A DNA stretch of 34,278 bases from Bacteroidota bacterium (lineage in GTDB: Bacteria; Bacteroidota; Bacteroidia; SXHM01): assembly GCA_947479755.1 (NCBI GenBank), contig CANKAM010000038.1, positions 1 to 34,278 of the forward strand. The letters are read 5' to 3'. Of this stretch, positions 23,573 through 33,700 are shown piece after piece. A model generated the notes under the pieces. It was not told the DNA's origin, did not search any database, and worked only from the letters and a program-made list of their open reading frames with translations. The translations under genes and the position numbers were made by a program. The first letter of the stretch is position 1. Each line of letters begins with the position of its first letter.

Positions 23573-24136
23573 TTGGACAAGAAAAAAGCCACCCTGTTTT
23601 TCCTTTTGAAACTATTTACCATGTATGCACTTTACATGTATGTATGGAAACAGTTTGTATGGAATTCATTTTTAGCAAAGCCCTGGGAATTGCTGCACCA
23701 CTTCCTATTAAAAGCTACCATGGCATTTTGTTTATTTTTTCTAAACCTTTTTGGTTACGAGGCTATTGAATATAGCTACCGTGTTATCGTTATGGTAAAA
23801 CCCAACGCAAGTATAACTGTTCAGAATTATTGTCTTGGTTTGGATGTGATGGCGCTTTTCACCATGTTGATTATTGCTTACCCCGGACCATGGAAAAAGA
23901 AATTGCTTTTTATTCCTGTTGGAATTATTGGTGTTTTCATCATCAACCAACTCCGCATTATGGCAATCGGAATTTGCTTTGTTGATTTTATTGAATACGC
24001 ATGGTTCGACAACCATTTGTATTTCAATGTAGCTGCGTACAGTTTTATTTTTCTGTTTTTTGTTGGATGGGTAAATTACCTGGAAAGGCAATCTGTTGAT
24101 TTACCGCAGAGGCGCGAAGGCGCAGAGGAAAAGTAA
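23573..24136 (+). CDS. Exosortase/archaeosortase family membrane protease-transpeptidase
   Basis: The 187-residue multi-pass protein starts with TTG. The three catalytic residues of the exosortase family are all present in the usual order: Cys87 in ITVQNYCLGLDVMALF, Arg128 in IINQLRIMAIG and His148 in FDNHLYFNVAAYSF. Membrane helices lie at about 8-30, 44-62, 90-104, 110-135 and 152-170. Exosortases cleave and transfer proteins bearing a C-terminal sorting signal at the inner membrane. Size and the WVNYL ending resemble the short Bacteroidota forms (XrtF-like). No substrate or accessory XrtF-associated gene is recognisable beside it. The last eleven or so residues (LPQRREGAEEK) are encoded by a dispersed repeat at 24101-24127, so the native C-terminus was probably around WVNYLERQSV. 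Confidence 0.85.
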   Translation: MDKKKATLFFLLKLFTMYALYMYVWKQFVWNSFLAKPWELLHHFLLKATMAFCLFFLNLFGYEAIEYSYRVIVMVKPNASITVQNYCLGLDVMALFTMLIIAYPGPWKKKLLFIPVGIIGVFIINQLRIMAIGICFVDFIEYAWFDNHLYFNVAAYSFIFLFFVGWVNYLERQSVDLPQRREGAEEK

Positions 24137-24160: not shown

Positions 24161-24955
24161 CTACCGGCATTCAGGATTAATCCCTTTTACGTAATGCTCA
24201 ATGAGATTAAGTTTTGCAGCCGTCTCAGAGCCTGTAAAACCTGCAATGTTATCCGGTTTAATTTTTTGTGAATATTCTTTCAGAATTAAAGCTGATAAAG
24301 GAGTATAGCTCCAATGCCATTTCTCTTCTTCGTAACCATTAGGTCGGGTTTCATTCTTTACCGAATAGGGTTGACAAAAACCAAATTGTGCTGCATTTTT
24401 TTTCAGCCATTCGTAAACCTTTTTTCCTTCAGCAGTAGTGAAGTATGCATTCTCAAGGCTGTTCAAATCCATGTCGGTTCCCCAATGATGGCGTGATGTT
24501 CCGGGCATGGAACTGTAACGCAAAATAGTTTTTGCTCTTTCAACCGGGTCTTTAATTGTTTGCGAAAGATTTTTGCCGTTTACTAATCTGCTGCCGTTCC
24601 ACTTCGCTTCCCAAATAGATTTTTGATCGTTGAAGTTTCGCATAGCCGAAATTATTTTCAGGTTTACACCTTCCTTTTTTGCGGCATCATACATTTTCAC
24701 AAAAGCTGCAATGGTTTCTTTACGCAGATACATTCCTTCTTTACTGCAATACTTCATTGGAATTAAAGCAAACGATGTATCTGTTTTCGGATTGAATTTT
24801 CCTAAAAGATATTCGGCAGAATAAACACGAGCTTGTATTTTTTCTTTTTCCGGAAGAACTTCGTTTATAACTGTAGTATCTGTGTTCTCAGGCTTCCCTG
24901 AACAAGAACAGATTTCTAAAGTAAGTAAAGCAAACAGAATAAAACGAATATTCAT
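24161..24955 (-). CDS. Peptidase M15 lipoprotein (D-alanyl-D-alanine carboxypeptidase, VanY type)
   Basis: The 264-residue lipoprotein has lipobox LTLEICSC. The M15B/VanY catalytic domain is complete: VNLKIISAMRNFNDQKSIWE, then the zinc ligands His and Asp in SRHHWGTDMDLN, and the general base Glu and third ligand His in EEEKWHWSYT. It should trim the terminal D-Ala of peptidoglycan peptides in the periplasm, affecting cross-linking, although VanY-like proteins without vancomycin resistance genes are common in this phylum. The ATG at 24955 lies 3 bases beyond the stop of the GT39-MORN gene, so the two are co-transcribed. The 3' end converges with the exosortase gene. Confidence 0.93.
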   Translation of the reverse strand: MNIRFILFALLTLEICSCSGKPENTDTTVINEVLPEKEKIQARVYSAEYLLGKFNPKTDTSFALIPMKYCSKEGMYLRKETIAAFVKMYDAAKKEGVNLKIISAMRNFNDQKSIWEAKWNGSRLVNGKNLSQTIKDPVERAKTILRYSSMPGTSRHHWGTDMDLNSLENAYFTTAEGKKVYEWLKKNAAQFGFCQPYSVKNETRPNGYEEEKWHWSYTPLSALILKEYSQKIKPDNIAGFTGSETAAKLNLIEHYVKGINPECR

Positions 24956-24958
24956 TCT

Positions 24959-26884
24959 CTATTTCTTTCCTGCTTGTTGATTAACAAAAAGGTTCTTTTT
25001 CATATCACCTTCCTGCACCAGTTTACCTGCTTTATTGTACAGTTTTCCATATCCTTTAATAGTATCATTTACCCATGTGGCGTGCAATACATTTCCGTCA
25101 GTCATGTTGATAATTCCTTTTCCGTTACGCACGTTGTTTTTAAATTCTCCTTCAAATTTCATTCCGTTGGGCCAGGTGAAAATACCAAAGCCCTCCCGCT
25201 TATCGTTTGCCCAATCACCATCGTAAGTAGTTCCGTCTGCGTAACGGGAACTGCCTTTACCATTGCGCTTTCCATTAACGATGGGACCAACATACCCGCG
25301 ATCGTGATTGATCTCAAAAAGATAAGTGTCCGGATTTTTCATCTGTTTTACCAGTTTGAACTTTTCCGGATTTTTCTGAACGGCAGGATACAGGTATCTT
25401 CCTGTTTGTCCAAACCCCAATTGCTCAATTACCAGATGCGTTGCTCCCACTTCTTTCATATTATTGATAAGGCTGTCGGCATTAGAAGAGTTGATAAAAT
25501 TAGTTACGGTGCGATCGGCATAGAGGTAAAACAACTCGGGTTTGCGGCAGACTACAATTGCATCTTTAGGAAGGCTGCTTTTGGCAAACTTTGCAAGTTC
25601 AAAGTAATTGGTGTAAGCCGGATTCATCATTCCTTTTGCAAACGTCTCAAGATAGATTATGCCTTTTTTCTCCACCATAATAAATGCGAGAAATACAAAG
25701 GGAAGAATAACAACGCGAAGATTTTCTCCAAGCTTAACTTTCTCTGCCAGCCAATTTAAACCTTCATAAACAGGGAAAACAAGCAACAAATAAATAAAAG
25801 GAATGGCAGGTAAAATAAAACGCGTTCCATACCATGCATCAGGCCAAAGGGCAACAATAAAAGCTGTACCTGCAAGGTAGGCTATAACCAGCCATCGGTA
25901 TTTTTTGAGTGTGAACAAACCTAAAATGCCCAACAACGAAAGAAAAATTCCCAGTCCCCATTTGCGGTCTTCCGGTTTTGCCTTATTGTAATTTTCAATT
26001 TTATAACACATTACGGAACTCGGAATTTCCATGCTTACGTAACGCTTCACATTTTTCTCAACGCGGGTAAACCAATCTTTGGCTTGCATTTTTCCCAACT
26101 CAGGGCGATACGGATTTATCATCATCAGTTGACGCTCATAGCCGCCACCGCCCAATGATTTGCTTCTGATATACCAAGGCATTGCCAACAGAATAAAAGT
26201 TCCGGCAACAATTCCCGCCAGCTTCCATTTGCGCTCAAAAAGGAAATAGAGGATAACACCGCCCACCAGCGACAGACCCGCAGTGCGTATGTAATAGCTT
26301 AGCATCATAAAGAAAATCATGAGCCAGAAATTGTAATCCTTGAGTGAAAACTCTTCCTTGTTTACCCGCATGAGAAAGAACACGGCTGCCAGCGAAGTGA
26401 AGAGAAATGGAATCTCCGACATTGCTATTGTGGAGAAGTTGAGCAGGTGCAAATTCAGTGCTGATAAAAGTGTGATAACAAACGAGAGGTGTTTGTTTCC
26501 CGTGAGGTTGATTAAAATAAAGTAGAGCAGCACCATGCTGCCGAAAAGAAAATAACCGTTTGCCTTGTTCATCACTTCAATATCGTCACCGAAGATTTTC
26601 ATGATGCCGGCAGAAATTACAGGATATCCGGGAGGATAGTGATTGGCAGGTTCTTTTGAGGGCAGGTGGATATTGGTATAACCTGCTCCCTTCATCAGCG
26701 ATTTTGCGGTGATGTAATACACAGCATTATCGCCACCGAGGTATAGTTTATTATCATAGACCTGATTGTAAACTTTTACAATTGCAAAAAGTAAGGCAAT
26801 GATGTAAATCGTGTGAATCCACCACGCTTTTATTTCAAATGATTTTTTCGCCTGTGTTGTTTTTGATTTTGCTTTTGTAGCCAT
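24959..26884 (-). CDS. GT39/PMT-type glycosyltransferase membrane protein fused to four C-terminal MORN repeats
   Basis: The 641-residue protein starts with a Lys-rich cytoplasmic tail, then a GT-C fold. The first extracytoplasmic loop has YLGGDNAVYYITAKSL (the acidic position expected for lipid-linked-sugar transferases) and EPANHYPPGYPVISAG. About ten membrane helices follow up to residue 400, then a periplasmic domain (about 420-525). From residue 531 to about 622 come four 23-residue MORN repeats: YVGPIVNGKRNGKGSSRYAD, YDGDWANDKREGFGIFTWPN, FEGEFKNNVRNGKGIINMTD and a weaker fourth around HATWVNDTIKGYGKLYN. MORN repeats commonly bind membranes or other proteins. This fusion is not one I know from characterised enzymes. 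It starts 42 bases after the type IX cargo gene and is coupled to the M15 peptidase gene. Acceptor and sugar are unknown; modification of the cargo encoded upstream is one possibility. Confidence 0.87.
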   Translation of the reverse strand: MATKAKSKTTQAKKSFEIKAWWIHTIYIIALLFAIVKVYNQVYDNKLYLGGDNAVYYITAKSLMKGAGYTNIHLPSKEPANHYPPGYPVISAGIMKIFGDDIEVMNKANGYFLFGSMVLLYFILINLTGNKHLSFVITLLSALNLHLLNFSTIAMSEIPFLFTSLAAVFFLMRVNKEEFSLKDYNFWLMIFFMMLSYYIRTAGLSLVGGVILYFLFERKWKLAGIVAGTFILLAMPWYIRSKSLGGGGYERQLMMINPYRPELGKMQAKDWFTRVEKNVKRYVSMEIPSSVMCYKIENYNKAKPEDRKWGLGIFLSLLGILGLFTLKKYRWLVIAYLAGTAFIVALWPDAWYGTRFILPAIPFIYLLLVFPVYEGLNWLAEKVKLGENLRVVILPFVFLAFIMVEKKGIIYLETFAKGMMNPAYTNYFELAKFAKSSLPKDAIVVCRKPELFYLYADRTVTNFINSSNADSLINNMKEVGATHLVIEQLGFGQTGRYLYPAVQKNPEKFKLVKQMKNPDTYLFEINHDRGYVGPIVNGKRNGKGSSRYADGTTYDGDWANDKREGFGIFTWPNGMKFEGEFKNNVRNGKGIINMTDGNVLHATWVNDTIKGYGKLYNKAGKLVQEGDMKKNLFVNQQAGKK

Positions 26885-32630: not shown

Positions 32631-32638
32631 TATTTTTG
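32631..32638 (+). promoter_or_regulatory. Bacteroidota -7 box (TATTTTTG) of the recombinase gene
   Basis: A perfect TAnnTTTG lies 15 bases before the ATG at 32654. It overlaps the in-frame TTG at 32636, which is therefore unlikely to be the start codon. An AGCAGG Shine-Dalgarno-like stretch lies between the box and the ATG. Confidence 0.5.
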
Positions 32639-32653
32639 TGCAAGAGCAGGAAA

Positions 32654-33700
32654 ATGAAAACACTATCGTCAAAAGCAGTTACGCATAACAACCAAACCTA
32701 TTGGGCTATTAACTTTGAATATAACTCAGCACTGATTGCTGAACTGAAGAAGCTGCCGGGAACGCGGTGGTCAAAGACATTTAACTCATGGCTGGTAAAG
32801 GCAACCCCTCAAAATAAAAAGAAGGTTAGGGAAATATTCGGGATGCCAGCGGTGGAACAAACGCCTGTTTGGGTAGAGTGTGAGCGGCTGAAAGACTGGA
32901 TGCAATCGCGCAGATACAGCAGCAGCACGGTAGAGGTGTATGCCGATGCACTGAAAACATTTCTTACCTATTATAAAGACAAAGCGGTTAAGGATATCAG
33001 CAATGATGATATTATTGCTTTTAACAACAAGTATATATTGGCAAATAAATTATCGGCATCCTATCAAAATCAGGTGGTGAATGCGATAAAACTTTATTTC
33101 AGGGCAATACAAAATACAGCTATTGATATTGATTTAATTCATCGTCCTAAAAAAAATAACCTCTTGCCTAATGTTTTAAGTAAAGAAGAAATAAAAAGCA
33201 TTTTAACTGCGCAGCAGAATATTAAGCACAGAACAATGCTTTCACTTATTTACAGTTGCGGGCTGAGAAGAAGCGAGTTGCTGAATTTGAAACTAACGGA
33301 TGTTGACTCAAAAAGAAAACTGCTTATTATAAGACAGGCAAAAGGAAAGAAAGACAGAATTGCTCCGTTGAGTGAAAAAATTATTGAGCTGCTGCGCGAG
33401 TATTATAAACTGTATAAGCCAAAACAATGGCTGTTTGAAGGACAAAAAGCCGGTGAGCAATATGATGAACGAAGTTTGCAGAGTGTTTTAAAACAAGCAC
33501 TGGAAAAATCAGGAATTAAAAAACCTGTAACGCTTCATTGGCTCAGACATAGTTATGCAACACATTTGCTTGAAGCAGGAACTGATTTAAGATACATACA
33601 GGAAATATTGGGACATAAGAGCAGTAAGACCACTGAAATTTACACGCATGTAAGCACAAAAAGTCTTCAAAATATTAAAAGCCCCTTTGATGATTTATAA
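32654..33700 (+). CDS. Tyrosine recombinase (phage-integrase/XerD-like) with extra N-terminal domain
   Basis: The 348-residue protein contains all catalytic positions: Arg205 (YSCGLRRSELLNL), Lys232 region (KGKKDR), His295-x-x-Arg298 (LHWLRHSYATHLLEAG), His321 (ILGHKSSKTTEIYTHV) and nucleophile Tyr330. A core-binding SAM-like domain lies at about 75-155. In front is an additional domain of about 65 residues (YWAINFEYNSALIAELKKLP, then GTRWSKTFNSWLV) recurrent in Bacteroidota integrases. It catalyses DNA cutting and rejoining via a 3'-phosphotyrosine. No IntI-specific insertion is present and no attC sites are visible. It has its own promoter and lies beside the repeat-rich island. Whether it mobilises the island, acts on hairpin repeats or is a relic is unknown. 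A leftover tRNA target was not seen. Confidence 0.93.
   Translation: MKTLSSKAVTHNNQTYWAINFEYNSALIAELKKLPGTRWSKTFNSWLVKATPQNKKKVREIFGMPAVEQTPVWVECERLKDWMQSRRYSSSTVEVYADALKTFLTYYKDKAVKDISNDDIIAFNNKYILANKLSASYQNQVVNAIKLYFRAIQNTAIDIDLIHRPKKNNLLPNVLSKEEIKSILTAQQNIKHRTMLSLIYSCGLRRSELLNLKLTDVDSKRKLLIIRQAKGKKDRIAPLSEKIIELLREYYKLYKPKQWLFEGQKAGEQYDERSLQSVLKQALEKSGIKKPVTLHWLRHSYATHLLEAGTDLRYIQEILGHKSSKTTEIYTHVSTKSLQNIKSPFDDL

Follow-up and report, generated by a model that had tools for sequence, protein, structure and literature searches.

A predicted GT-C glycosyltransferase with a C-terminal MORN-repeat tail conserved across Bacteroidota

In the eukaryotic O-mannosyltransferases TMTC1-4 and TMEM260 (CAZy GT105 and GT117) a GT-C membrane domain is followed by a C-terminal, extracytoplasmic tail of TPR repeats, and these lumenal repeats have been proposed to recruit the protein acceptor (PMC11292533). 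In the bacterial GT39 enzyme MtPMT, D74 in the first external loop (EL1) is catalytic, D176 is needed, R441 lies in the fifth external loop, and the protein has 11 helices and a periplasmic C-terminus (PMC12331936); an invariant DE pair in EL1 serves as the definition of PMTs (PMC12705809). Periplasmic three-component glycosylation is encoded by a gene set of GtrA, a GT2 enzyme and a GT-C enzyme (PMC11127046, PMC8035078). The repeats of MORN1 are described as dimerising, as making protein-protein contacts and as not binding membranes, and lipid or membrane binding by MORN repeats is disputed (PMC7725318). According to a 2025 review, three components of Bacteroidota O-glycosylation have yet to be discovered: its oligosaccharyltransferase, its ligase and its core flippase (PMC12871550). 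Within the available portions of the open-licence literature, we found no report of a bacterial MORN-tailed glycosyltransferase or of an identified Bacteroidota OTase. Each ingredient has a precedent, be it the GT-C fold, the MORN fold or the notion of a tail that binds the acceptor; by the same literature, what is new is their combination in one protein, conserved across Bacteroidota.

This combination is found in a gene of a Bacteroidota bacterium, located in a window of 34,278 nucleotides (the whole stretch of DNA that was analysed). On the basis of its sequence and a structural model, the gene product is predicted to be an inner-membrane GT-C glycosyltransferase (Table 1). The gene lies 42 bases downstream of a type IX cargo gene and 3 bases upstream of a VanY-type carboxypeptidase gene, all on the minus strand. 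The first-pass annotation recognised the kinds of both neighbours correctly, but the cargo that it called giant is 1096 residues long. Its use of the neighbours as a clue to function did not hold up: in a tblastn search across 76 loci of the named-genome collection, cargo and VanY genes were found at 5/5 loci of the genus and at 0/71 of the others. Since this neighbourhood is confined to the genus, it says little about the function of the GT-C protein beyond it, and we set this line of evidence aside. The window also contains a gene for a small exosortase-family protein (23573-24136, plus strand), which is nearest to XrtX/XrtY, below their cut-offs but above that of the general signature TIGR04178, as well as a gene for a phage-type tyrosine recombinase (32636-33700, plus strand).

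Table 1. Positions in the window of the GT-C gene, its predicted parts and its two neighbours.
Feature	Position	Strand	Basis or remark
Complete gene for the predicted GT-C glycosyltransferase and its C-terminal MORN tail	24959..26884	-	641 aa, ATG start
Membrane part with GT-C fold, residues 1-417: N-terminus in the cytoplasm, then 11 transmembrane helices	25634..26884	-	AlphaFold2, PDB fold matches, loop charges
First large periplasmic loop (EL1), residues 43-101	26582..26758	-	AlphaFold2 model, loop charges
D52 codon, acidic residue of EL1, presumed catalytic	26729..26731	-	D in 58/58 aligned homologues
E157 codon, second acidic residue, at EL2	26414..26416	-	E in 58/58 aligned homologues
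R355 codon, fifth external loop / start of helix 10	25820..25822	-	Listed invariant, 58 rows; position from model
Alpha/beta domain, residues 419-529, resembling the C-terminal globular domain of STT3/AglB/DPY19	25298..25630	-	Fold matches of isolated model
MORN unit 1, residues 531-553; aligned place of the 23-residue unit missing from Kordia-type tails	25226..25294	-	
MORN unit 2, residues 554-576, best Pfam match	25157..25225	-	
MORN unit 3, residues 577-599	25088..25156	-	
MORN unit 4, residues 600-622, degenerate	25019..25087	-	
Partial unit / cap and disordered end, residues 623-641	24962..25018	-	AlphaFold2 model, repeat register
Upstream gene: DUF7948, PKD and type IX sorting domain (CHU_C / type B), 1096 aa	26927..30217	-	Pfam, NCBIfam
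Downstream gene: VanY-type D-Ala-D-Ala carboxypeptidase	24161..24955	-	Pfam

Pfam assigns residues 27-239 to the PMT family (PF02366; 29.1 bits, cut-off 22.7), NCBIfam assigned no family to the protein, and two Pfam hits below the cut-off, FemAB (E 0.016) and R1_ABCA1 (E 0.21), were discarded. A profile search of solved structures recovered no solved GT-C enzyme at E up to 0.1 and, at E up to 10, three viral matrix-protein chains only (E 0.13-0.15), which we took as chance. An AlphaFold2 model was built with 58 family members, in which Pfam detects PMT in 40, PMT_2 in 21 and MORN in 30. The full-length model (pLDDT 90.2, pTM 0.84) was aligned by VIA-align with yeast STT3 (8age; Z 24.9, 446 residues, 4.0 A, model residues 13-532), Pmt2 (6p25; Z 24.3, 347 residues, 3.5 A, 17-419), the lipid-oligosaccharide mannosyltransferase ALG12 (9s6t; Z 23.6, 414 residues, 5.8 A) and ArnT (5f15; Z 23.4, 437 residues, 4.8 A, 21-527, the whole core). 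As modelled, its multi-helix membrane domain makes the protein a member of the GT-C fold, and the initial assignment as a GT-C enzyme is borne out by this fold together with the Pfam PMT match.

AlphaFold2 and hydropathy predict 11 helices, the first at residues 18-42 and the last at 387-417, behind a lysine-rich N-terminus, with 0-3 basic residues per short inner loop and 0-1 per short outer loop. With the N-terminus inside, eleven helices put the C-terminus outside, as in MtPMT, which likewise has 11 helices, an N-terminus that faces in and a periplasmic C-terminus. The first-pass annotation had placed the tail on the periplasmic side, and helix count and modelled fold agree in predicting that it faces the periplasm; topology and leader assignments rest here on inspection by eye, hydropathy and the model. 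In 58/58 aligned rows D52 in EL1, an acidic residue in the first external loop as in GT-C enzymes, and E157 at EL2 are identical, with R355, close to EL5, also listed among the invariant residues. Judged by loop positions, these three residues may correspond to D74, D176 and R441 of MtPMT. In contrast to the DE pair of PMTs, EL1 carries D52-N53, with N53 in at least 90% of the 58 rows, and the PMT fold matches end at residue 419-420, which leaves out the alpha/beta domain and the tail.

We folded the C-terminal part alone (pLDDT 92.4) and matched it against known structures, whereupon residues 419-529, the alpha/beta domain, aligned with the C-terminal globular domains of yeast STT3 (8agb; Z 10.3, 107 residues, 3.0 A), AglB-S2 (3vu0; Z 9.4, 103 residues, 2.9 A) and DPY19 (7zli; Z 8.7, 99 residues, 2.9 A). 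These Z values are moderate, and they indicate an OST-type fold, not a function. ArnT and PMT are absent among the 50 matches listed for this isolated model, so that matches to them may still exist beyond these. Because a single superposition on STT3 (8age) runs through both membrane and alpha/beta parts, the latter is placed on the lumenal, that is periplasmic, face. STT3, AglB, PglB and DPY19 are, like the protein described here, GT-C enzymes with a C-terminal globular domain of similar fold. Unlike them, it shows no detectable sequence similarity to these enzymes and has a MORN tail, and its 641-residue sequence lacks the WWDYG motif, which we take to be a mark of oligosaccharyltransferases.

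The identity of the tail is clear from both sequence and fold. The Pfam MORN match (PF02493) reaches 60.4 bits with an E of 8.5e-17, far above chance, over three scored stretches, and the isolated tail model matches MORN4, junctophilin-2 and MORN1 at Z 13-15; the tail thus combines a 23-residue repeat above the Pfam cut-off with the MORN fold. The fusion proposed at the outset therefore stands, with four units and a cap at the C-terminus. The copies had also been called register-perfect, which is true of their spacing, since units start at residues 531, 554, 577 and 600, exactly 23 residues apart, with a partial cap from 623, but overstated for their sequence, since unit 4 (LHATW...) deviates from the Y-x-G-x-W pattern and the stretches that Pfam scores are three. 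MORN1, the junctophilins and MORN4 share repeat length and fold with the tail, but the matched structures are eukaryotic and, unlike the present protein, not glycosyltransferases. In the model the MORN beta-sheet runs on from the alpha/beta domain without a flexible linker, and no low-confidence linker lies between the two. No DNA-level tandem array was found across the units, so they are old. Tails in the family are not all of the same length: those of the window genus and of three relatives (L030, L043 and L044) have one unit more than Kordia-type tails, a difference of exactly 23 alignment columns.

A MORN domain outside the inner membrane had been regarded as unusual, a view that does not fit this organism. 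Its genome contains five MORN ORFs, and the four beside the GT-C gene start with hydrophobic sequences that look by eye like leaders, so that MORN outside the inner membrane appears to be normal here. These four (L002, L004, L141 and L148) make the exported MORN proteins a small family in this genome. One of them, on C12, has at least 11 scored repeats and, behind these, a long stretch rich in Lys, Glu and Ala.

The fusion is neither restricted to this assembly nor recent. With residues 1-525 as a core-only query, the core was found in the window genome and in 5/6 other genomes of the genus, the single miss being a genome that is 68% complete (G002), and the MORN tail is present in 6/6 genus copies found. 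Across 15 pairs within the genus, dN/dS is 0.04-0.12 for the tail and 0.03-0.08 for the core, with the tail exceeding the core in 14/15; the tail is thus under purifying selection, slightly looser than that on the core. A search of the named-genome collection with an alignment of cores yielded 76 loci. For each locus a script extracted the reading frame and inspected the sequence C-terminal of the core; it classed 31 as MORN-tailed, 43 as tailless, one as TPR-tailed and one as partial; among the 58 aligned members it tagged the same number, 30, as MORN-tailed as did Pfam. Tailed isolates include Kordia algicida OT-1, K. periserrulae, K. jejudonensis, K. aestuariivivens, Marinifilum sp. N1E240 and Marinoscillum sp. 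MHG1-6. In a sample of the class, 88/395 genomes have the core (E up to 1e-20), and at 30 loci of those genomes where the tail was read, 16 have MORN.

We then placed 88 distinct cores, 36 tailed and 52 without a tail, on a tree, leaving out duplicates and cores with a profile span of <400 positions (among them L062, L085, L088/L118, L092, L096, L099, L119 and L020). The tail label changes 5 times, at least 3 of which are forced by well-supported branches, versus about 28 changes with shuffled labels; 33/36 tailed rows fall in one 40-row group, whose support is not strong. With so few changes, the tail is best seen as a trait of lineages that was gained or lost a few times. Since the same fusion recurs across the phylum, the sequences identify it as an old, conserved feature and a real enzyme type, not a quirk of one assembly. 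In Sunxiuqinia indica (L062) and a MAG (L088/L118) the tailed gene is split over several reading frames, by decay or sequencing error. The MORN-less relative with the TPR tail (Pfam) is from a Fibrobacterota MAG (L065:3623-5419) and is cut by the contig end; its TPR repeats stand where the MORN tail stands in other members.

The genes beside the relatives point to the sugar donor. We tallied flanking GT2 genes at 63 distinct loci out of the 76 (24 MORN-tailed, 39 tailless). One close GT2 family (scores >=340) occurs in the flanks of 11/24 MORN loci, in ten of them on the same strand and within 300 bases of the GT-C gene, and 9/39 tailless loci have a flanking GT2 at a score above 150. The flanking GT2 matches dolichol-phosphate-mannose synthase (5mlz), ArnC and GtrB, with AglJ below the cut-off. 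In the window genome the orthologue (64% identity) is encoded away from the GT-C gene (C2:112266-112973), and in the genus it does not adjoin the GT-C gene. Co-occurrence as a sign of a dedicated pair was rejected as weak: this GT2 is found in 253/395 class genomes (E up to 1e-60), so that only adjacency counts. A Calditrichaceae contig (L060:161-2952) carries GtrA, GT2 and a tailless GT-C gene contiguously, as a complete three-component operon, and a GtrA-like neighbour cluster occurs at 10 tailless loci, three of which were checked with Pfam. From the GT2 genes that often adjoin relatives, the complete operon and the GT-C fold, we infer that the donor is probably a polyprenyl-phosphate sugar. 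A lipid-linked monosaccharide donor, probable here, would be shared with GtrA-GtrB-Gtr systems and ArnT, but unlike the former the window locus has neither a GtrA nor a GT2 gene adjacent.

Two further neighbourhoods were noted. At L068:5546-7548 and similar Barnesiella/Tannerella loci, a tailless GT-C gene is followed by genes for an FAD-dependent oxidoreductase of the PRK07208 type and for a member of the GtrA family; this set recurs and may serve to make the sugar donor or to move it. The genome to which the window belongs has its GT2 orthologue (L137:5756-11339, on C2) beside a second GT2, which is GtrB/PgfS-like, and beside two polytopic membrane proteins that Pfam does not match, and this region is a possible hub of lipid-linked sugar synthesis.

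Taken together, these comparisons lead us to lean towards an enzyme that would act on the periplasmic side and whose MORN tail would recruit or position the acceptor, or else a partner or a second copy of the enzyme. In the cytoplasm, a GT2 like dolichol-phosphate-sugar synthases would load a hexose onto polyprenyl phosphate; a flippase would turn the lipid-linked hexose over to the periplasmic side, and the GT-C enzyme would move the hexose from polyprenyl phosphate to a periplasmic acceptor. The tail would serve as a protein-protein module that places acceptor, partner or second copy. The first-pass annotation had suggested that it might bind wall, membrane or cargo; for membranes, the work on MORN1 (PMC7725318) argues against such binding and in favour of contacts between proteins. 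Since tailless relatives retain the same acidic residues, the tail is probably dispensable for catalysis as such and not required for the basic reaction. The TPR repeats at the same place in the Fibrobacterota relative fit acceptor recruitment of the TMTC/TMEM260 kind. The window gene itself lacks a TPR tail and those enzymes belong to the eukaryotic ER, so that the likeness is one of architecture, not drawn from sequence comparison. We rank recruitment or positioning first, with dimerisation and glycan binding as its rivals.

Glycan binding would belong to an enzyme like ArnT or Gtr that adds sugar in the periplasm to an envelope glycan such as lipid A or O-antigen; the tail would then bind this glycolipid or hold the enzyme within a synthesis complex. 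We consider this possible, though not probable. The model matches ArnT over the whole core and ALG12 at a similar Z, GtrA and GT2 near relatives make up the classic O-antigen glucosylation set (PMC11127046), and added acceptor-binding domains are described on glycan-modifying GT-C enzymes (AftD, GT136; PMC8035078, PMC11127046). However, among the 50 matches listed the isolated alpha/beta domain fits STT3, AglB and DPY19 best, and by Pfam the two genes that adjoin the GT-C gene in the window are not genes for polysaccharide or lipid A.

It also seems rather unlikely that the tail has no part in acceptor choice and acts purely as a clamp for dimers or oligomers, although MORN1 repeats dimerise without binding membranes (PMC7725318) and eukaryotic PMTs act as dimers (PMC12705809); the variable number of units and the replacement of MORN by TPR in one relative fit a binding role at least as well. 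That a tailless GT-C gene and a MORN gene were joined by accident or by faulty assembly might be suggested by the 43/76 tailless relatives and the free-standing MORN genes of the genome. We give this practically no chance, because the tail is kept in all six copies from the genus, recurs in isolates that belong to several families, has a low dN/dS and is concentrated in one group of the tree, and conservation rules out both an artefact and a one-off fusion. Uniqueness to this assembly, like a cytoplasmic tail, had been named at the outset as a finding that would overturn the proposal; the data point the other way on both, for the tail's side by the model.

For the phylum, the wider reading is that these GT-C enzymes glycosylate proteins and form a class of their own in Bacteroidota, in which an OST-like C-terminal domain is joined to a periplasmic MORN tail for the capture of particular exported proteins, as an independent bacterial counterpart of TMTC1-4 and TMEM260; we regard this as speculative and, at present, unlikely. 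With the core in only 88/395 class genomes, the family is too patchy to be the general transferase of Bacteroidota O-glycosylation. Were the reading true, it could be, for a subset of species, one of the transferases missing from protein O-glycosylation in Bacteroidota. The family is conserved, has both an OST-like C-terminal domain and a tail of protein-binding type, and occurs in Kordia, which can be cultured, so that it makes a concrete candidate. It would also mean that bacteria, as animals do, extend GT-C enzymes with tails of repeat protein, for which either MORN or TPR can be used.
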